From positions 1 to 26,703 of IMG/VR virus record IMGVR_UViG_3300048065_000133: DNA of 26,703 bases; one strand, 5' to 3'. Source of the stretch: a virus. Positions within the stretch are counted from its first letter, which is position 1, and each line of letters begins with the position of its first letter. The position numbers were made by a program, and so were the translations under genes. Below are positions 5,992 to 23,491 of the stretch, in pieces. The notes under the pieces are model-generated. The model did no database searches, was not told where the DNA came from, and was given only the letters and a program-made list of their open reading frames with translations.

Positions 5992-6067
5992 AAAGCTAGG
6001 CGTGTCCGTCATCGGGTAGCACACTGCAAGTTAGTTCAAATGTAACCTGTAGAAAAGGAGAGACATT
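5992..6067 (+). promoter_or_regulatory. Leader of the major capsid gene with ribosome site and possible fold
   Basis: A 76-base gap in an otherwise tightly packed operon. GTGT at 6002-6005 can pair with ACAC at 6021-6024, with CCG/CGG inside. Further on, a four-pair stem flanks the seven-base loop TTCAAAT near 6035-6041. AAAAGGAG (6053-6060) is a strong Shine-Dalgarno for the ATG at 6068. The fold may help high expression of capsid; this is inference. Confidence 0.4.
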
Positions 6068-11775: not shown

Positions 11776-14298
11776 ATGCCAAAGATACCCTTATACAATC
11801 AAGGACAAGGTGCAACAGTAGAGACTGCGGCTGGCGCATTGTCACCTAAAGCAAGCGTAGGGGCATTTACCGCACCTGGACAAGCACAGGCAGCATTTGC
11901 ACAAAAGGCTGGTCAGGTTGCTTTTGAGTTCGGCATGAGAGAAAAGCAACGCCAAACTGAAACGATAAAAAGAGAAAGAGAAAGCCTAGCTAGGGAAACT
12001 TCGGCAGAGCATTTGCGTAATGACAAGTCAACTTCAGCAGAAGAAGCAAAGGCAAACTTTGCTAAATTTAGCCAAAATCAATTAAATCAAATAGAAGGGC
12101 TAAACCTTACTAGAAGTCAAAAGCAAGAAATTAGAAACAGTGTATCAAGAGTTTTTGCCGTACAAAGCGTACAAGGGCAAAACAACGGATACCTTAGAGG
12201 CGAACAGAAAGCTGGGGAAAGTTACGCCAAAACTATAGAAGATAGCATCGAAGCTTTAAGAGCGTTGCCGCCAGACAGTCAACAAGCAATGCTTCTGATG
12301 TCGCAGATAGATTCTACTATTGATGAAGCAACAGCCTCAGACAGACTTGGGTTCTTGCCAGAAGGAAGAAAAACAAAAGATCAAATTCGCGGAATTATTC
12401 AAACAGACCGTACCACTGTTCTAACTCAAGACCCTCAGTCCACCATAGAGCAGTTAGAGGCTGAAAGAGCTAGAGTATCTAAGTCTTTCGCTGACGGTCA
12501 GATTGATGGAGTAGCAGCTAGACAAAATGAATCTTTGCTAGATACAGAGATTAAAACTAGAAAAAATCTTGAAAAGTCTTTGGGTACAGACGCAGAAAAT
12601 GAAGCGTTTGAAGCCGCCAAAACATATCAGTATGACACCATTATAAAGGGTTCGCCTACTTTAGCGAAATTAGATGCGGTTATAGAGCAGATAGATAATG
12701 AATCTGGTGTTTATGAAGGCATTAATATTGATCAAAAAAAATACTTGAGAAACGAAGCAGAACAAGCAAGAGACAACTTGATTACAGCAGGTAATTTTGA
12801 TGCTCAACAAAATTTAGATGCTGGGTTAATAGCCGTAGCGCAGGGTGCAGAACCTACTTTAGCGAAAAAAGCAATCAAACATTATTATGACACAGGACAA
12901 GATGATAAGGCAGAACAAGCAGCAATATTGGTTAATGCAGCTTTTGGTGCGTCATCAGAATTTACAAGCAATGTTTTTTCTACTCCAAGTCAAGTTAATG
13001 CGTCTCTGGCTTTGGCTAAAGAAGAATTAAATGAAGCAATAGAATCCCAAGATGCGGCAAGAATTAAAAGTGCTAACAAAAAAATAGAATTGCTTGATAA
13101 CCTGTATGAGAATAGAGGCAAGGCAATTACGCAAGATCCTTATGGTTATGTTGCGTCAGAACTTCAAAAGCAGGGCATTGACATACAAAGCATGAGTGCT
13201 TCTGAACGAGCCTCTAAGATGTTGGCTTATCAAAAGAAGATGGGTGTGTCTAATGTCGATATACAGCTAATTAGCGCAGCAGAAGCGGCTCAGATAAAAG
13301 AGCAATATGATGCTACGGATGCCTCAGAAAAAGGTGCTTATCTTGAGTCTTTGTTTAGTCAGTATGACCCTGCAATGCAACGTGGAGTAATGCGTAACTT
13401 GCGGCAGTCTGGGTTTACTACGATTGATATGCTGATAGCCTCAGACAAATCAAGCCCTAAGAATGTGCTGTTAAATGAAGCGCAAGCATTTAAGCAAGAG
13501 GACTTAAACAAAGTTTTAAAGCCAGCACAAAGAGAAGAAATAAGTAATTTGCTTCGTCAAAAGATGATGCCATTTACTCAAAGTATAGCTGGTGGCGTAG
13601 GCGGCAATTATTTTGATAGAGGTGCTGGGGGCGGAAGGCTTGCCTTTACTTTTGAGGTTGAGCAATCGCTAATAAAGGTAGCGCAACTAGAGGTTTATAG
13701 GGGCAAAAGTTTAGAAGATGCCGTAGAATCCGCTTTTCAAGTTATTGGCAGAAGATACGATTTCAACGATGTAAACAACAAAAGTATTCGCATCCCTAAA
13801 TCAACAACCTTAGACCCTAGTTCTATAACAAGCTATTTAAAGTCTAAGATTGCGGATACTGAATATCTGCGGTCTATTGTAAAATCACCAACAGAAAGAG
13901 GCCAAACAGAAGAAACCAGCAGGGTTCTTTATACTAGCAGAATAGCTGATGATGGTGGTTGGAGAACGCTAGACGATGATTCTGGGGTTTACATGATTGA
14001 CGGTGACGGTAACTTTGTCATGCAAGAGGTGATAGAGTTTGATGCTGATGATAATGAAATTAAAAAAGAAGTGCCGATTATCATTAAGTTCTCAGAAATA
14101 TCTGGTGCAGTTGAGCAAGATGAAAAGACACGGGTTGAGACACTGCTTCAAACACCTGGCGGTAAAGGTAAACTTCTTCTTGAGGAGCAAGGCTTTGGGC
14201 CAGCAGAAACTATCCCATCATTTGTAGCCCCACCACAAACAGGTTCGCTGCAAAGGTCTATGGACTTGGCAAAGGAAAGGCGTGGCAAGGATGGTTGA
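11776..14298 (+). CDS. Internal virion protein C-like (T7 gp15-like)
   Basis: 840-residue, mostly helical, charged protein in the place of T7 gp15, a core protein that forms the periplasmic part of the DNA-ejection channel (T7 gp15 is 747 residues). The N-terminal 60 residues are Ala/Gln/Gly-rich and contain FEFGMREKQRQTETIKRERE (near residues 53-72). Long Glu/Lys/Gln helices follow, with TPR-like stretches. No lysozyme or transglycosylase motif is visible. AGGTGA lies five bases upstream of the start. The end overlaps the next gene by 8 bases if that gene starts at its ATG, or by 17 if it starts at GTG. Confidence 0.83.
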   Translation: MPKIPLYNQGQGATVETAAGALSPKASVGAFTAPGQAQAAFAQKAGQVAFEFGMREKQRQTETIKRERESLARETSAEHLRNDKSTSAEEAKANFAKFSQNQLNQIEGLNLTRSQKQEIRNSVSRVFAVQSVQGQNNGYLRGEQKAGESYAKTIEDSIEALRALPPDSQQAMLLMSQIDSTIDEATASDRLGFLPEGRKTKDQIRGIIQTDRTTVLTQDPQSTIEQLEAERARVSKSFADGQIDGVAARQNESLLDTEIKTRKNLEKSLGTDAENEAFEAAKTYQYDTIIKGSPTLAKLDAVIEQIDNESGVYEGINIDQKKYLRNEAEQARDNLITAGNFDAQQNLDAGLIAVAQGAEPTLAKKAIKHYYDTGQDDKAEQAAILVNAAFGASSEFTSNVFSTPSQVNASLALAKEELNEAIESQDAARIKSANKKIELLDNLYENRGKAITQDPYGYVASELQKQGIDIQSMSASERASKMLAYQKKMGVSNVDIQLISAAEAAQIKEQYDATDASEKGAYLESLFSQYDPAMQRGVMRNLRQSGFTTIDMLIASDKSSPKNVLLNEAQAFKQEDLNKVLKPAQREEISNLLRQKMMPFTQSIAGGVGGNYFDRGAGGGRLAFTFEVEQSLIKVAQLEVYRGKSLEDAVESAFQVIGRRYDFNDVNNKSIRIPKSTTLDPSSITSYLKSKIADTEYLRSIVKSPTERGQTEETSRVLYTSRIADDGGWRTLDDDSGVYMIDGDGNFVMQEVIEFDADDNEIKKEVPIIIKFSEISGAVEQDEKTRVETLLQTPGGKGKLLLEEQGFGPAETIPSFVAPPQTGSLQRSMDLAKERRGKDG

Positions 14299-15931
14299 CC
14301 TTTTTATTCCAGAACAAGAAGATGATGCAGTTCTGCGTAAGAACTTCTTTAACTACGATAAAGTAGGCACATTAGATGTTCTGGGAGCAACCTTACAAGA
14401 AACTATCTACTACAACCCTGCGTCTGCGTTAAGTAGAATGGGTGAGCAGTATATGTTTAAGGATGAAGGGCAAATTCTTTCTAGCGATGAGTACAAGGAA
14501 AGCGAGTTCTTCAGAGAGGGTATAGAGGTTGGCGATGAAGGTATATCAACTGGCGAGGCTAATATACTTGCCAAGAGGTATGATGAGCGTGGAAAATTCC
14601 AAAGCGTATTAAGGCGGTCAAAAGGCGGCATAGGTCTGGGTGCTATGCAGTTTGGTACAGCTTTAGTAGGTAGTATGCTAGATCCTCTTAACATTGGCAG
14701 TGCGTTTGTTCCTGTCGTTAGAGAGGCAAGGATTGCTGGCCTTACTGCTAGGTTCGGCAAATCAGGTGGTAGGTTCTTGGCTGGGGCTGTAGATGGCGCG
14801 GCTCTTGCTGTACCTTTAGAAGTTCCTATTAATATTGCGGCACGAATGGAGCAAGACCAAGACTACACCATAATGGACAGCCTTCTTAATGTAACTATAG
14901 GCGGTGTGCTGGGCGGTGGTTTTCATGTTGCTGGTGGCAAAATAGGCGATGCAATCAAAAGGACAACGCCAGAAACAAGAGAGCAAGCCTTGAGAACTTC
15001 TGTGGGTCAGTTGGTTCAAAACGGCAAAGTAGAAATCAAGCCTATATTTGATGTTGATAGAAAAATTGGGCCATACGTTGCATCTGAAAAAGAAGGTCTT
15101 TTTAGAGCGTTAAAAGCAGAGCCAGTGGAAACACAGGCAGAAGTGCCAGCATCACTAGAACCTTTAAGGAACAGGCCTAAAAGCCTGACAGAATTTATAA
15201 AAGAAAATGGCGGCATAGATTCTAACGATAGATTTGCTGGTGACTTTTCTATATTCATGGGCAACGAAGCTGGTGACTTGGTTAAGTCTGGCGGTAAATC
15301 GGCAGAAGAAATGGCAAAACTTGCCGATGAGGCAGGGTACTTTTCAGCCAAGATAGATGATGCTCAAAAGGCTAGCACAGTCGATGAGTTGCTTTCTTTA
15401 ACGGAGCGTGACTTCTTAGAAGGCAAAACAATATACAGTGGCACAGATCCAGAAGTAGCTAAGTATAGAGAGGCTGTGGACTTATTTGAACGTGCTGAAC
15501 GTCAGGGTGTAGACGTAGCTGGCAAAACAGATGCACAGCTATTTGATGAACTGCAAAGAGCAGAGGCATCTGGTGATGCTGTTTCTACACAAGCTAAGTC
15601 ACAATCAGGTTTGACACCCCAACAGTTTGATCAAACAAGAGAAACAATCGAAGCTAGGCAAAATGACATAGGTGAACTTGAGCCTATGAGAGCAGAGGCA
15701 GAGGGCATGGAAGCAGAAGCAAATGCCGCAAGAGATCCAGACGTTGCCTTTGTAGACCAAGACAATGCTGAATTAGAAGCAGAGATAGAGCAGTTTGACG
15801 ATATAGGTTTGGTTTCAGAAAAAGATAAAGCAGAACTTGCCGCACTTAAAGAGTTACAGGAAAAGTCTGATAAGGCATATCCATCTGTAACAAAGCAAGC
15901 TGGTATTTGTATGCTGGGGGCAATTCAATGA
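14291..15931 (+). CDS. Internal virion protein D, N-terminal part (T7 gp16-like, first of two genes)
   Basis: 546-residue protein with gp16-type blocks: SMLDPLNIGSAFVPVV starting near residue 127, a Gly/Ala hydrophobic section, DYTIMDSLLN near 191, and a Gly-rich VTIGGVLGGGFHVAGG. The remaining part is acidic and helical. An N-terminal transglycosylase domain like that of T7 gp16 is absent. I took the ATG at 14291; a GTG at 14282 (three codons earlier) has a better-spaced AAAGG and is a real alternative. Its stop overlaps the next ATG as ATGA. Together the two genes code for about 1,395 residues, close to a single T7 gp16 (1,318). Confidence 0.75.
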   Translation: MVDLFIPEQEDDAVLRKNFFNYDKVGTLDVLGATLQETIYYNPASALSRMGEQYMFKDEGQILSSDEYKESEFFREGIEVGDEGISTGEANILAKRYDERGKFQSVLRRSKGGIGLGAMQFGTALVGSMLDPLNIGSAFVPVVREARIAGLTARFGKSGGRFLAGAVDGAALAVPLEVPINIAARMEQDQDYTIMDSLLNVTIGGVLGGGFHVAGGKIGDAIKRTTPETREQALRTSVGQLVQNGKVEIKPIFDVDRKIGPYVASEKEGLFRALKAEPVETQAEVPASLEPLRNRPKSLTEFIKENGGIDSNDRFAGDFSIFMGNEAGDLVKSGGKSAEEMAKLADEAGYFSAKIDDAQKASTVDELLSLTERDFLEGKTIYSGTDPEVAKYREAVDLFERAERQGVDVAGKTDAQLFDELQRAEASGDAVSTQAKSQSGLTPQQFDQTRETIEARQNDIGELEPMRAEAEGMEAEANAARDPDVAFVDQDNAELEAEIEQFDDIGLVSEKDKAELAALKELQEKSDKAYPSVTKQAGICMLGAIQ

Positions 15932-18532: not shown

Positions 18533-20527
18533 ATGACAGTCAGTACCACCACAACTAAGGACAGCTATAGCGGTAACGGTTCAACCACCGTATTCGCCTA
18601 TACTTTCAAGATATTCGATGATGATGACATCACCGTTATCTTAAGAACTACTGCTACTGGCAACGAGACAGTACAAACAAAGACTACTGACTACAGTGTT
18701 TCTGGCGTTGGCGATGCAAATGGTGGCAACATAACTTTTGTTACTGCTCCACCAGCCACCGAAACTGTTGTGCTTTTACGCTCAACTGCACAAACACAGC
18801 TAACAGACTATACGCCTAATGACCCATTTCCAGCAGAAGCCCATGAAGATGCGCTAGACAAACTGACATTTATTACACAGGACATACAAGAAGAGCTTAG
18901 TCGTTCTTTGAAAGTGTCGCAAACAAACAGTATTGCTACAGCTACTTTTACAGCTACACCCACAGCAAGAGCCAACAAGGTTTTAAGTTTTGATAGCAAC
19001 GGTGATTTACTTGCTGCGCAAGAGCTTGGCACTTTCAGAGGCACGGACGCAACAGTAACAACGGCTAGCTATGATGAGCGTGACTTAGTTAAGTCTACTA
19101 CAGCAGCGCAGTTAGATAACGTATATATAGCTCTACAAGCCTCTCCTAGCGGCACGTTACTTACAAACACTACCTATTGGGCATTGGTTGTAGATGCTGT
19201 TTCTGCTGCAACATCCGCAGCCGCAGCCGCATCATCTGCATCAGCAGCCGCAGCAGATGCGATACTTACAGCCGCAGATGTTGTGTCTACTAATGCTGAC
19301 GTGGTTTTAACTAACGCTGATGTTGTGACTACTAATCAGAATGTAATTGATGCGCAAGCTGCACAGGCTGCGGCAGAGTTAGCGGCAGATAATTTTGATG
19401 ATACTTATCTTGGTGCAAAGGCTAGTGACCCGACTGTAGATAATGATGGCGACCCATTAAATGCTGGTGACTTGTACTTCAACACAACAAGCGACAACAT
19501 CAAGGTTTATGACGGTTCTAGTTGGGCTAATGTTGCCTCTGGTTCTACTTTATCTGCTGTAGTAGACGATGGCACTCCGCAGTTAGGCGGCAACTTGGAC
19601 ATGAATGGTAATGACATTGTTACCACATCCAACGGTACGATAGACCTAGCCCCGAATGGCACTGGCACTGTTGTTGTTAGAGGCAATACAAACTCAGGTG
19701 CTATTGTGTTTAACTGTGAAGCTAACACACACGGGCAAACAGTGATTGCACAGCCTCATTCTGCGGCAGTGACTAACACGCTTACTTTACCAGCAGACGG
19801 TGATGCTGAGTTAGTCAGTACAGTAGCTGCACAAACTCTCACCAACAAGACCTTAGATGGTGCTAGCTCTACTGGTAACTTGAACTTTGGGGACAATAAC
19901 AAGGCGCAGTTTGGTGCTGGCACTGACTTGCAGATTTATCACGATGGTAGTCATTCATATATAGATGACGCTGGGACAGGGCGTCTTTACATTCGTGGAA
20001 ATGGTGCTGTTGAGTTACAAAAATATACTGGCGAAAAGATTTTAGAAGGTAACGCAGATGGCGCAGTCAATCTCTACTATGACAACAGTAAGAAAGTAGA
20101 AACAACCGCCACAGGCATAGATGTTACTGGCGAGATGCAAGCCGACAGTCTGGACATTGATGGTGATGGCGATATTAGCGGCAATTTAACAGTTGGCGGT
20201 ACTGTAACGGCTAAAACAGACACCGACACAACAAACACTGGTTCTGTAACGCTAGACTTTGGGGCTAACCAAAACTTTGTTCTTACCCTTACAGGGAACG
20301 TGACGCTGGCAAATCCAACCACAGAACAAGTCGGGCAGTCAGGCTTTATCGTATTCATACAGGACGCAACAGGCGGCAGAACAGTATCGTTAGGTACAGA
20401 CTACGAGACTGCTGGCGGTGCTGGCATAAACCTATCCGCATCTGCAAGCACTACTGATGTTGTTCCATATATTGTTGCCGCATCAGGGCGTATTCTGCTT
20501 GGCACACCACAACTAGCCTTCTCATAA
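18533..20527 (+). CDS. Tail fibre protein with T7-type N-terminal domain
   Basis: 664-residue receptor-binding fibre candidate. The N-terminus matches the T7 gp17 virion-attachment domain: YSGNGSTTVFAYTF at residues 12-25 and TDYTPNDPFPAEAHEDALDK at 91-110. An Ala/Ser/Asp heptad-like stretch (about 223-290) fits a trimeric coiled-coil shaft. A beta domain with GDLYFNTTSDNIKVYDG follows, then repeated QTLTNKTLDG and FGDNNKAQFGAGTDLQIYHD sections that I associate with marine phage fibres. The C-terminus is a small Gly/Thr/Val-rich beta domain. No endosialidase-type chaperone is evident. AAGGAG of the next gene lies right after the stop. Confidence 0.9.
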   Translation: MTVSTTTTKDSYSGNGSTTVFAYTFKIFDDDDITVILRTTATGNETVQTKTTDYSVSGVGDANGGNITFVTAPPATETVVLLRSTAQTQLTDYTPNDPFPAEAHEDALDKLTFITQDIQEELSRSLKVSQTNSIATATFTATPTARANKVLSFDSNGDLLAAQELGTFRGTDATVTTASYDERDLVKSTTAAQLDNVYIALQASPSGTLLTNTTYWALVVDAVSAATSAAAAASSASAAAADAILTAADVVSTNADVVLTNADVVTTNQNVIDAQAAQAAAELAADNFDDTYLGAKASDPTVDNDGDPLNAGDLYFNTTSDNIKVYDGSSWANVASGSTLSAVVDDGTPQLGGNLDMNGNDIVTTSNGTIDLAPNGTGTVVVRGNTNSGAIVFNCEANTHGQTVIAQPHSAAVTNTLTLPADGDAELVSTVAAQTLTNKTLDGASSTGNLNFGDNNKAQFGAGTDLQIYHDGSHSYIDDAGTGRLYIRGNGAVELQKYTGEKILEGNADGAVNLYYDNSKKVETTATGIDVTGEMQADSLDIDGDGDISGNLTVGGTVTAKTDTDTTNTGSVTLDFGANQNFVLTLTGNVTLANPTTEQVGQSGFIVFIQDATGGRTVSLGTDYETAGGAGINLSASASTTDVVPYIVAASGRILLGTPQLAFS

Positions 20528-20536
20528 GGAGTTGCC

Positions 20537-22927
20537 ATGTCTGGCCCATTCGGTTCTTCACAGTTTATGTATAAGACAGGCGAAGAGGAAGGCCAATCCC
20601 TGCGCTTTGAGAATAGTGATAGTGCCTACCTAAATTGGACACCTCCTTCAGTTGGCTCTAGCTTGACGCAAACCCTTTCTTTTTGGATGAAAAGAACCAC
20701 TGCGGGAAACTATATATTTAGAGCCAGTGAATTTTATTTGTATCTCGTTAACGATAATCTTAATTATTACGATTGGCGGCAAGGTGCAAACGGCCATATT
20801 TTAGTAACTAACGCAGTGTATCGTGATGTTTCAGCTTGGATGCACGTTGTGCTTACTCAAGACCGTGGCAACGCAACAGCTTCTGACAGAATAAAGCTGT
20901 ACGTCAACGGGGAGCAAGTTACATCCTTTTCAACTGCCACTTACCCCAATCAGAACGAAGGCTCTTATTTTAATAATTCTGGAAACATACATTATATGGG
21001 TGGCACTTCTGGTAACTTCTTTGACGGCTACCTAGCCAACGTCACCTTCATAGACGGGCAAGCCCTAGACCCCACCAGCTTTGGCGAGTATGACGGCACG
21101 TTGTGGAAGCCTAAGTCTGACACAGACATACAGGCACTGACCTTCGGGACAAACGGGTTCTACCTTAATTTTGAAGATAGTTCTGCCATTGGTGATGATA
21201 CAAGCGGCAATGCAAACGATTGGACTGCCAACAATTTAGTGGCTACAGATGTCGTGCTGGACAGCCCTGTGAATGGCGGTAACTTTGCTACATATAACTC
21301 TGCTTTACCTTCAACAATGACATTAAGTGAAGGCAACCTAAAAGCTTCACAAGCTGGTGCGGCATGGCTAACAACAGCCGCAACTTTTTATGTTTCAAGT
21401 GGAAAGTGGTATTGGGAAACTAGAAATACAGATAATGACTATCACATGGTCGGCATTGTTGCTGACAGTTTTGGCACTTACACAAACCATGTAGGTATAA
21501 CAGCAGATAGTTACTCTTATTATAATTGGGCGGCAAGTGGGTCTGCTGGGAACAAATACAATAATGGTGTAGCTACCAGTTATGGCGACCAGTGGGCGGC
21601 TGGAGATATTATAGGGGTAGCATTGGATTTAGATGCTGGAACTATAGAGTTTTATAAAAACAATGTAAGTCAGGGTGTAGCGTTTACAGGAATTTCTGGG
21701 ACATACGCTCCTGCAGAAAGTTTGTGGACAAGTGGTTCTATAGCCAACTTCGGTCAGGACAGCTCCTTCGCTGGCAACGAAACACCGCAGGGCAACGGTG
21801 CAGATGGTGAAGATTTTTTTTACAGCCCACCTTCGGGCTTCCTTGCGCTGACCACTGGCAATCTGCCTACGCCTACCATCACTGCGCCAGACGAATATTT
21901 CAATACAATATTGTGGACAGGTAATGCTACCTACCCTCGCTCAATAACGGGTGTAAATTTTCAACCAGATCTGATCTGGATAAAAGCACGGAATCAAGCG
22001 TATAACCATGTATTGCAGGACTCTGTTAGAGGAACAGGAGCAGCTGGTCTTTACTCAACCGCTGCTCAAGCTGAAGGTTATTATGATGACTATCATAATA
22101 TAACCAGCTTTGACACTGACGGGTTTACAGTTGATCAGACCACCCTCACAGACGTTTTCAATGGTGTTGTATCAAGCGTTGGCATTACTAATGTCGCATG
22201 GAACTGGAAAGCTGATACAGCATTTAGTAATTCTGCTGGAACGAATGGCGCAGACTTAGCGTCCACAGGACGTGTAAATCAAGATGCAGGGTTTTCTATA
22301 GTTAGTTTTGACTTAGAAGCAGCTGGCAGTAAAACGGTAGCGCATGGTTTGTCATCTGCCCCAGAGATGATAATTGTAAAAAGTAGAGATGCCGCAACTC
22401 TTTGGCCTGTATATACCGAACCTACGGGTAATACAAAGTATCTTGTACTTGGTACAGCCGATGATGAAGCGGCAAACTCTACAGTTTGGGATAACACATC
22501 TCCAACTTCCTCTGTTTTTACGATAGGTTCTGGGTTTACTACAGGCAATTATGGCACAAGACAAATAGCCTACTGTTTCCATTCGGTTGAAGGCTACAGC
22601 AAGATAGGCTCATACACAGGGTCATCAGATTTGCCCTTTGTCCACTGTGGGTTTAGACCAGCTTGGATTTTAATTAAACGAACCGACATAACAAGTGCTG
22701 AAAGTTGGACTATAAAAGACACAACAAGGTCACCTTACAATGAAAGCACAATAGAACTTTATGCAAATTTAACCGCTACCGAATATGATGATATCTATGG
22801 TAACGCAGATTTCTTGTCTAATGGTTTTAAATTAAGAAGCAATAACTTACACACAAATACCACAGGCGGAACGTACATATTCATGGCTTTTGCAGAAGCC
22901 CCATTTAACAAAGCCAACGCCAGATAG
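20537..22927 (+). CDS. LamG- and SPRY-domain tail protein (adhesin-like)
   Basis: 796-residue protein next to the tail fibre. Residues about 20-200 form a LamG/concanavalin-type jelly roll: FWMKRTTAGNYIF, then AWMHVVLTQDRG, IKLYVNGEQV and FFDGYLANVTFIDGQAL. Residues about 285-410 match a SPRY (B30.2) domain: GKWYWETRN at 289, GDIIGVALDLDAGTIEFYKN around 355-374 and GTYAPAESL. From 470 on there are three copies of an F-x-P-x-x-I-x-x-K-x-x pattern (PDLIWIK at 477, PEMIIVK at 609, PAWILIK at 708). Both domain types bind ligands such as sugars or proteins. Likely a surface-binding tail appendage. Strong AAGGAG site. Confidence 0.82.
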   Translation: MSGPFGSSQFMYKTGEEEGQSLRFENSDSAYLNWTPPSVGSSLTQTLSFWMKRTTAGNYIFRASEFYLYLVNDNLNYYDWRQGANGHILVTNAVYRDVSAWMHVVLTQDRGNATASDRIKLYVNGEQVTSFSTATYPNQNEGSYFNNSGNIHYMGGTSGNFFDGYLANVTFIDGQALDPTSFGEYDGTLWKPKSDTDIQALTFGTNGFYLNFEDSSAIGDDTSGNANDWTANNLVATDVVLDSPVNGGNFATYNSALPSTMTLSEGNLKASQAGAAWLTTAATFYVSSGKWYWETRNTDNDYHMVGIVADSFGTYTNHVGITADSYSYYNWAASGSAGNKYNNGVATSYGDQWAAGDIIGVALDLDAGTIEFYKNNVSQGVAFTGISGTYAPAESLWTSGSIANFGQDSSFAGNETPQGNGADGEDFFYSPPSGFLALTTGNLPTPTITAPDEYFNTILWTGNATYPRSITGVNFQPDLIWIKARNQAYNHVLQDSVRGTGAAGLYSTAAQAEGYYDDYHNITSFDTDGFTVDQTTLTDVFNGVVSSVGITNVAWNWKADTAFSNSAGTNGADLASTGRVNQDAGFSIVSFDLEAAGSKTVAHGLSSAPEMIIVKSRDAATLWPVYTEPTGNTKYLVLGTADDEAANSTVWDNTSPTSSVFTIGSGFTTGNYGTRQIAYCFHSVEGYSKIGSYTGSSDLPFVHCGFRPAWILIKRTDITSAESWTIKDTTRSPYNESTIELYANLTATEYDDIYGNADFLSNGFKLRSNNLHTNTTGGTYIFMAFAEAPFNKANAR

Positions 22928-22936
22928 GAGATAGAC

Positions 22937-23491
22937 ATGGCATGGAAGCTAAACAATAAAACTATCCGCGCTGGCAGAGGGTTTACTGACAGCAACGGAA
23001 CGAAGCACCCTAAAGGTTGGATGCGCTGGACAGACGCGGAAAAGACTGCCGTAGGGCTGGCATGGGAAAATGACCCAGCACCCTATGACAATAGGTTCTG
23101 GTGGGACGCTAACACCGCTAAGGCTCTCGATGACGTTAATGCAGTAGACCAGAATAACAATCCTGTCCTAGATGCAGACGGCAACCAGATAGTAACGCTG
23201 GGGCTGAAGAGCGTCTGGAAGTCACGAACTAAGGAACGTGCTGGCAATCTACTAGCCCCGACTGATTGGATGGTTATTAAAGCGTCAGAGGTTTCTGGCT
23301 ACACAGTACCGTCAGCGACAACAACATATCGTGCGGCTGTACGCACTGCATCCAACACCATCGAGGCGGCGATAGATGCGGTTACTACCCATGCGGCCTT
23401 CTTAGCGTTGTGGGATACACCTATGGATAGTCAAGACCCTCCGCAGCCTACTGGCAAAGCACCGATAAACGATTGGCCTGACGAGATTTAA
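22937..23491 (+). CDS. Probable tail fibre assembly/chaperone-like protein
   Basis: 184-residue protein after the two tail appendage genes. The N-terminal part contains HPKGWMRWTDAEKTAVGLAW and FWWDANTAKAL. The C-terminal part has LLAPTDWMVIKASEVSGYTV followed by a YRAAVRTASNTIEAAIDAV helix. This 'P-T-D-W-x-x-x-K ... R-x-x-V-R' layout is seen in tail fibre assembly and XkdW-like proteins, which often form the last gene of the tail module. Function is inferred from pattern and order. AGGAG lies seven bases before the start. Confidence 0.65.
   Translation: MAWKLNNKTIRAGRGFTDSNGTKHPKGWMRWTDAEKTAVGLAWENDPAPYDNRFWWDANTAKALDDVNAVDQNNNPVLDADGNQIVTLGLKSVWKSRTKERAGNLLAPTDWMVIKASEVSGYTVPSATTTYRAAVRTASNTIEAAIDAVTTHAAFLALWDTPMDSQDPPQPTGKAPINDWPDEI

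Follow-up and report, generated by a model that had tools for sequence, protein, structure and literature searches.

The fragment studied here raises two questions: what does the large gene directly behind its tail fibre gene encode, and on which part of the virion does the product sit? The window, that is, the whole stretch of DNA that was analysed, is a 26.7-kb IMG/VR record (26,703 nucleotides). A preliminary description, made from the letters alone, had proposed a second host-recognition appendage. The reading favoured here, and considered fairly probable, is that the gene encodes a receptor-binding adhesin that caps the upstream fibre, docks by its N-terminal peptide and has its modules exchanged, the product of the downstream gene assisting its folding or attachment.

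Genomic context of the adhesin gene

The window encodes terminase, head-tail adaptor, capsid, tail proteins, internal virion proteins, the fibre, the adhesin and a 184-aa protein; farther along lies a protein with lysozyme/endolysin-type matches. The terminase and the capsid are both nearest to those of pelagiphages (best 50.5% and 75.2%, respectively; HTVC010P, 49% and 74%), so the host is probably a marine bacterium. The features around the fibre-adhesin junction are:

18533..20527, + strand: tail fibre, 664 aa, with an N-terminal ~131 aa of podovirus tail-anchoring type (PHROGs and solved-structure matches)
20210..20524, + strand: fibre C-terminal tip domain and tail, residues 560-664 (tip profile)
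20483..20524, + strand: last 14 fibre residues, SGRILLGTPQLAFS, proposed socket (co-variation with the adhesin N-terminus)
20526..20531, + strand: Shine-Dalgarno-like AAGGAG overlapping the fibre stop codon and ending five bases 5' of the ATG (sequence)
20537..22927, + strand: adhesin, 796 aa, with N-peptide, LamG-like domain, SPRY domain and DUF7483 of three repeats (ORF, Pfam, AlphaFold2, fold comparison)
20537..20587, + strand: adhesin residues 1-17, N-terminal peptide MSGPFGSSQFMY..., proposed plug (low model confidence; co-variation with the end of the upstream protein)

The adhesin ORF is real: it starts with ATG, nine nucleotides after the stop codon of the 664-aa fibre, and its placement behind the fibre in a tail and host-recognition locus was described correctly from the start. 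At its N-terminus the fibre resembles phrog_1640 'tail protein' (residues 1-127; 7.5e-43) and the N-terminal part of the solved tailspike/tail fibre 28lx_A (Dpo31/Dpo36; residues 1-131; 9.6e-20); farther along, at residues 359-535, it matches fibre gp28 of cyanophage P-SCSP1u (8i4m_e; 1.4e-11).

Domain architecture of the adhesin

The AlphaFold2 model of the adhesin, built from 85 aligned sequences, reached a pLDDT of 89.4 and a pTM of 0.90, with pLDDT below 50 at residues 1-16. Its domains are:

20588..21244, + strand: LamG-like jelly roll, residues ~18-236 (4dqa fold match; Laminin_G_3 in relatives)
21281..21865, + strand: SPRY/B30.2 domain, residues ~249-443 (Pfam 4.7e-19; 4x8p_A)
21887..22903, + strand: DUF7483, residues 451-789 (Pfam 1.4e-100; repeat comparison)
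21890-22213, 22214-22582 and 22583-22924, + strand: DUF7483 repeat segments R1, R2 and R3, as cut here

A SPRY unit had been recognised from the motifs GKWYWE (residues 289-294) and GTIEFYKN (residues 368-375), and it is borne out by Pfam (PF00622 at residues 290-407, E 4.7e-19, 69.1 bits against a cut-off of 26.3) and by the beta-sandwich fold of the model, which matches Ash2L (4x8p_A) with Z 26.7 and rmsd 1.5 over 169 aligned residues. The Pfam score and the fold match rule out a chance motif. The jelly roll that had been placed before it is likewise present by fold: model residues 17-246 match the putative carbohydrate-binding protein 4dqa (Z 19.9, rmsd 2.7, 195 aligned), and the domain also matches PAPP-A (8hgh_A; Z 19.8, rmsd 2.5, 197 aligned). 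Laminin_G_3 (PF13385) gave no Pfam match at E<=1 on the adhesin itself; it matched three of 11 relatives at 0.01 and, in another sample, four of eight above the curated cut-off. Because the fold matches but the domain has no profile match of its own, we call it LamG-like on the strength of the model and do not file it under PF13385.

SPRY domains bind ligands that are mostly peptides. Among the five adhesin domains, SPRY had the highest mean entropy, with peaks at residues 269-282, 298-325 and 390-404; LamG residues 62-85 and R3 near residue 750 reached entropy equal to its variable stretches. In all-against-all comparison SPRY was the most variable folded domain (median identity 0.36, against 0.44-0.50 for LamG, R1, R2 and R3), while in identity to the adhesin of the window R2 (0.386) and R1 (0.409) were slightly more diverged than SPRY (0.417). 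A blanket statement of 'variable SPRY loops' is unsupported, since the mean entropy of the strands (2.31) exceeds that of the loops (1.82).

The C-terminal part belongs to Pfam PF24299, DUF7483 (E 1.4e-100, 337.1 bits against a cut-off of 27). Three copies of an F-x-P-x-x-I-x-x-K unit had been described there. They lie at residues 475-483, 607-615 and 706-714, and the second starts with S, so that the threefold repetition stands but the F holds only for copies 1 and 3. Two exact motif copies arose in none of 20,000 shuffles of the adhesin protein. The surrounding units of ~110 aa are homologous by hhalign (R1-R2 3.3e-14, R1-R3 1.9e-12, R2-R3 5.2e-8), with scores of 48-80 against at most 18.9 in column shuffles (30 per pair). 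Searches of DUF7483 against solved structures gave no convincing match, either by sequence profile (best CanA, 0.0059, and kappa-carrageenase, 0.031) or by Foldseek (best 7pln_B, an APCbeta domain, 6.9e-4, TM 0.26, rmsd 10.2). The best VIA hit had Z 5.4 and rmsd 3.2 over 79 aligned residues, and with none of 977 chains at Z >=8 no relation is claimed. BFVD gave 24 DUF7483 matches at E<=0.001, one named DUF7483 and most nameless.

A widespread family with separable modules

The adhesin matched 80 of 50,697 phage records, and in 45 of these a single place accounts for 80% or more of the query. The matching phages include those of Pelagibacter, Roseobacter, Methylophilales, Synechococcus, Prochlorococcus and Vibrio. 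Two scans of IMG/VR gave at least 594 and at least 577 relatives. Among the first IMG/VR loci, 73 of 101 complete ORFs bearing any of the three domains had the order LamG-SPRY-DUF7483, a count into which a few contigs entered twice; other orders repeat or drop a module, and L003 has several DUF7483 matches between LamG and SPRY. Residues 187-796 match phrog_19943 'virion structural protein' (4.1e-174), phrog_24898 'tail fiber protein' covers DUF7483, and phrog_27411 covers LamG-SPRY. The adhesin is thus a member of a widespread family that has been catalogued before (PF24299; PHROGs 19943, 27411, 24898) and whose function is undescribed.

In the four pelagiphages examined (HTVC022P, HTVC011P, Greip and Skadi-1), two neighbouring genes encode LamG-SPRY and DUF7483, so that two proteins of one lineage are linked by a fusion in another. 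A programmed frameshift was rejected for these split genes, as all four junctions read TAATG, a plain stop/start overlap. In Pelagibacter phage Greip, gp2 (L024:6242-7312) occupies the stretch matched by the DUF7483 half of the query, and its GenBank label 'SprT-like protease' therefore looks wrong. One ORF elsewhere (L081:2234-5218) has ~560 mostly glycine-rich residues, recalling polyglycine adhesins, followed by LamG-SPRY, with DUF7483 as the next gene. Two complete LamG-SPRY-DUF7483 genes adjoin within one contig in L050, L100 and L101, so a single phage may carry two adhesins.

Module exchange between close relatives

Comparison with close relatives showed that identity differs from module to module within the adhesin gene. 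Against relative L001, LamG residues 18-160 are 99% identical at the nucleotide level, with 65/65 four-fold sites identical, and identity falls to 47% in R1 (8/16 four-fold sites) and 56% in R2 before returning to 89% in R3. Between L001 and L002 the four-fold sites are alike in R1 (43/44) and R3 (41/42) and unlike in LamG (14/29), SPRY (7/24) and R2 (19/29), with segment borders set after the nucleotide identity comparison was known. The fibre can also part from the adhesin: fibre DNA of L007 is 91% identical to that of the window over 1.4 kb and most of its LamG is unalignable, L018 has a fibre tip at 87% and an adhesin at just 44%, and in the contig of L001 (L025) the fibre match is limited to a tip segment. 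Exchange between close relatives involves LamG, SPRY or a single DUF7483 repeat, each on its own. Two conserved stretches flank the SPRY cassette:

21020..21300, + strand: 5' flank of the SPRY cassette, conserved DNA and candidate crossover anchor (88-90% nucleotide identity to L002, L007 and L026)
21745..21906, + strand: conserved DNA between SPRY and R1, candidate crossover anchor (74-82% nucleotide identity to L002, L007 and L026)

With blastn, the LamG DNA just before 21020-21300 and the SPRY DNA just after it found no match in L002, L007 and L026.

The fibre tail and the adhesin N-terminus vary together

The tip profile, covering ~80 C-terminal residues, was found in 52 of 70 ORFs that immediately precede related adhesins and lay at the C-terminus in 52/52; in five of the 18 loci without it, another ORF bears the tip domain. 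These 70 were taken from 86, the 16 removed by hand being mostly short or cut and several of them tip-bearing. Tip-bearing ORFs are in many cases short (212 aa in L025) or, as MEP301 shows, differ from the annotated fibre. A second set of new adhesins comprised 106 that met the start criteria; after removal of 14 duplicates, 28 of 92 had no tip domain directly upstream, and one of the remaining 64 was too short.

The ~14 C-terminal residues of the protein encoded upstream and the ~14 N-terminal residues of the adhesin form matched classes: fibre tails with LLGxPQLAF go with adhesin starts GSSQWMY, ITARL with NxLLL, IHAV with GASGQ, NWYG with MFASK, and NLYE with xANGPSG. The classes agree in 87 of 95 classifiable loci, a descriptive figure because the class patterns were written after the pairs had been inspected, and 28 of 123 tails fall outside all classes. 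The pairing extends to isolates. Roseobacter phage CRP-811, in which a tape measure gene is present, has the fibre tail SGRILLGTPQLAFA and the adhesin ORF start MSGPFGSSQWMY, and cyanophage SS120-1 has IHCVASLDVK with RMGAAGAGG. Methylophilales phage MEP301 has the tail GTNLYEQGRSIGVA with GANGASGGYNL, its tip-bearing protein being gp17 and its annotated fibre gp22. All three isolates fit the pairing. Four pelagiphages have an adhesin gene that begins at LamG, without the N-peptide; three of these have another fibre end, GATGGGQFN, and the tip profile was absent in HTVC022P and Greip, the two tested.

Two side observations concern annotation and gene order. In CRP-811 (L022:6001-6031) the annotated start at 6031 omits the in-frame start at 6001, which yields MSGPFGSSQWMY, and the adhesin N-terminus is probably annotated too short. 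In L004 (9175-10233), L017 (9214-10272) and L072 (9212-10273), a second ORF that ends in the same tip domain is found beyond the adhesin and the gene that follows it.

Without recourse to classes, similarity of the tail and of the N-peptide was correlated with Mantel r 0.588 in set 1 (60 loci) and 0.596 in set 2 (63 other loci); the sets are disjoint but not independent, since 35 of the 63 resemble a set-1 member. The partial r given tip and LamG was 0.39 and 0.40, with 0/2000 permutations each, which is not a strict probability because the permutations ignore relatedness. When look-alikes were thinned at three thresholds, the tail-peptide r was 0.47-0.52, 0.39-0.43 and 0.26-0.35, the partial r 0.17-0.35 (0/1000 permutations each) and the N-peptide/LamG r -0.15 to 0.15. 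The 28 set-2 loci unlike set 1 gave r 0.33 and partial r 0.25.

Tail and peptide are adjacent in the DNA, so linkage must explain part of this co-variation. Proximity might even explain all of it, if the block from tip to peptide were simply co-inherited and served as a homologous crossover site; the protein would still recognise the host, and N-terminal docking would not be required. We regard this as possible but rather unlikely. The gap between the two genes, stop codon included, is -5 to 25 nt in 78 of 86 loci, and conserved stretches within the adhesin gene act like crossover anchors, both as proximity would have it. However, the peptide follows the tip, ~60-300 nt upstream, with r 0.54 in both sets (0.542 and 0.541), whereas it barely follows the first LamG segment ~35-155 nt downstream (0.009 in set 1, 0.201 in set 2). 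Counting against docking, tip and first LamG segment also correlated to some extent in set 2 (0.309). Two other gene junctions in the same loci gave low values, 0.193 (96 loci), a weak control because adhesin C-termini are highly conserved, and 0.123 (79 loci). Synonymous sites also argue against proximity: four-fold site values were a median of 0.31-0.36 within classes and 0.29 between classes, so that sites within a class are nearly as different as sites between classes and the pairing has outlasted near-saturation.

The separate appendage of the preliminary description, in which the protein would sit on the tail tube or knob and not on the fibre, is improbable. Such a placement would suit the occurrence of relatives in phages whose tails and fibre genes are quite different, and the distance of six genes to the annotated fibre in MEP301; but the adhesin often lies directly behind an ORF ending in the tip domain (the 52 of 70 above), and the classes match. 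The first residues of the adhesin vary together with the last ones of the upstream protein, so the adhesin more likely sits on the upstream fibre, and the earlier placement is probably wrong.

Under the fibre-capping reading, the first ~15 adhesin residues would plug onto the C-terminal tip and tail of the fibre, LamG, SPRY and the three-repeat DUF7483 would face outward, and the downstream protein of ~180 aa would aid folding or attachment. Host specificity would shift because single binding modules recombine while the docking pair is kept. Physical docking, receptor binding, the ligand and the chaperone role are what we infer from these comparisons.

Presence in virions and hypervariability

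The preliminary description had implied a surface protein, not an internal one, and a relative detected in virions agrees with this. The adhesin matches cyanophage P-SS2 at 46426-51228 in three pieces (38% identity, 77% of the query), which is ORF 073 (46354-51234). That protein, named a tail fibre by the authors, was detected in purified virions by mass spectrometry with an average of 5 peptides (PMC2784084, Table 2). This establishes presence in the virion, not position. In Skadi-1, the adhesin gives a two-piece match at 13389-15514, and the hypervariable region reported at 13,646-15,713, with an uncharacterised protein and a lectin-domain protein (PMC10504331), overlies by position the SPRY gene (14408-15730) and the DUF7483-type gene (13353-14408).

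LamG and SPRY are generic binding folds, and the protein could in principle hold virions to particles or polysaccharide gels instead of to a host receptor; such an environmental adhesin is quite improbable, as hypervariability and module swapping suit host arms races better. A glycan-degrading enzyme is very improbable indeed: the ConA-like superfamily contains glucanases (Pfam text for Laminin_G_3), but the structure matches found are binding domains (SPRY, LG and a putative carbohydrate-binding protein).

The downstream gene

22937..23491, + strand: 184-aa gene directly behind the adhesin, candidate assembly chaperone (phrog_4912 matches at this position)

An ORF follows within 400 nt behind the adhesin in 85 of 95 loci, and it is of 160-200 aa in 57 of the 85. 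The 184-aa protein itself matches phrog_4912 'tail fiber assembly' weakly (0.0022; none at 0.001). It was aligned with 63 of the 85, short, long and cut ones being excluded; among these 64 proteins, 25 match phrog_4912 and six an HNH endonuclease family. By analogy, a chaperone role may be suggested. In Alteromonas phage V22, the receptor-binding protein gp26 has an essential 21.8-kDa chaperone, gp27, encoded just downstream and described as resembling DUF4376 proteins (PMC7289586); DUF4376 matched 0/64 downstream proteins here at 0.001. In a handful of loci a gene of HNH or endonuclease VII type lies directly behind the adhesin, and it could drive adhesin exchange.

Relation to known systems and significance

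The arrangement resembles that of the T4-like phage S16, where the tip of the trimeric fibre gp37 is described as carrying a separate adhesin, gp38, with an N-terminal attachment part and a variable distal part (PMC6851490); here too the adhesin gene lies directly behind the fibre gene. According to the same account, a helical bundle with tryptophans anchors gp38, and the part on display is a polyglycine sandwich, whereas the present adhesin has a low-confidence N-peptide and LamG-SPRY-DUF7483. No gp38-named family was among its Pfam or PHROGs matches, and the model shows LamG, SPRY and beta repeats. We think that the adhesin may work like S16 gp38; kinship is not claimed.

SPRY in phage tails was known before: jumbo phages are described with LamG3 and SPRY concanavalin-fold domains on tail fibres (PMC7824862), an account that shares these two domains and in which DUF7483, docking peptides and module swapping do not figure. 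Of 390 genes that Mizuno et al. list in metaviromic islands, 9 are lectin-like and 12 encode tail fibres (PMC3909814); these islands are reported to under-recruit, and the Skadi-1 island is by position the gene pair described above (PMC10504331). As presented, the results of these island studies concern variable recruitment of reads and neither domain exchange nor a match between fibre and adhesin.

A 'plug and socket' code that pairs fibre and adhesin seems to be new. Two elements are novel, the connector classes and DUF7483 repeats that are exchanged separately. Neither was found in the open-access literature searched; in the same texts no paper mentions DUF7483 or joins a SPRY domain and a pelagiphage, an absence that is weak because only open-access texts were covered.

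More broadly, and tentatively, marine tailed phages may share a standard connector with at least five matched peptide pairs, on which LamG/SPRY/DUF7483 heads are shuffled; DUF7483 would then be a new receptor-binding fold with three exchangeable repeats. This connector might range over short- and long-tailed phages of alphaproteobacteria, methylotrophs and cyanobacteria. The nearest isolates of the present phage, HTVC010P among them, are pelagiphages, whose hosts are among the most abundant ocean bacteria. To our knowledge, pelagiphage receptors and receptor-binding proteins are largely unknown. If the connector code is true, an adhesin and its fibre could be read from sequence alone, and it would provide ready constructs for ligand screens.
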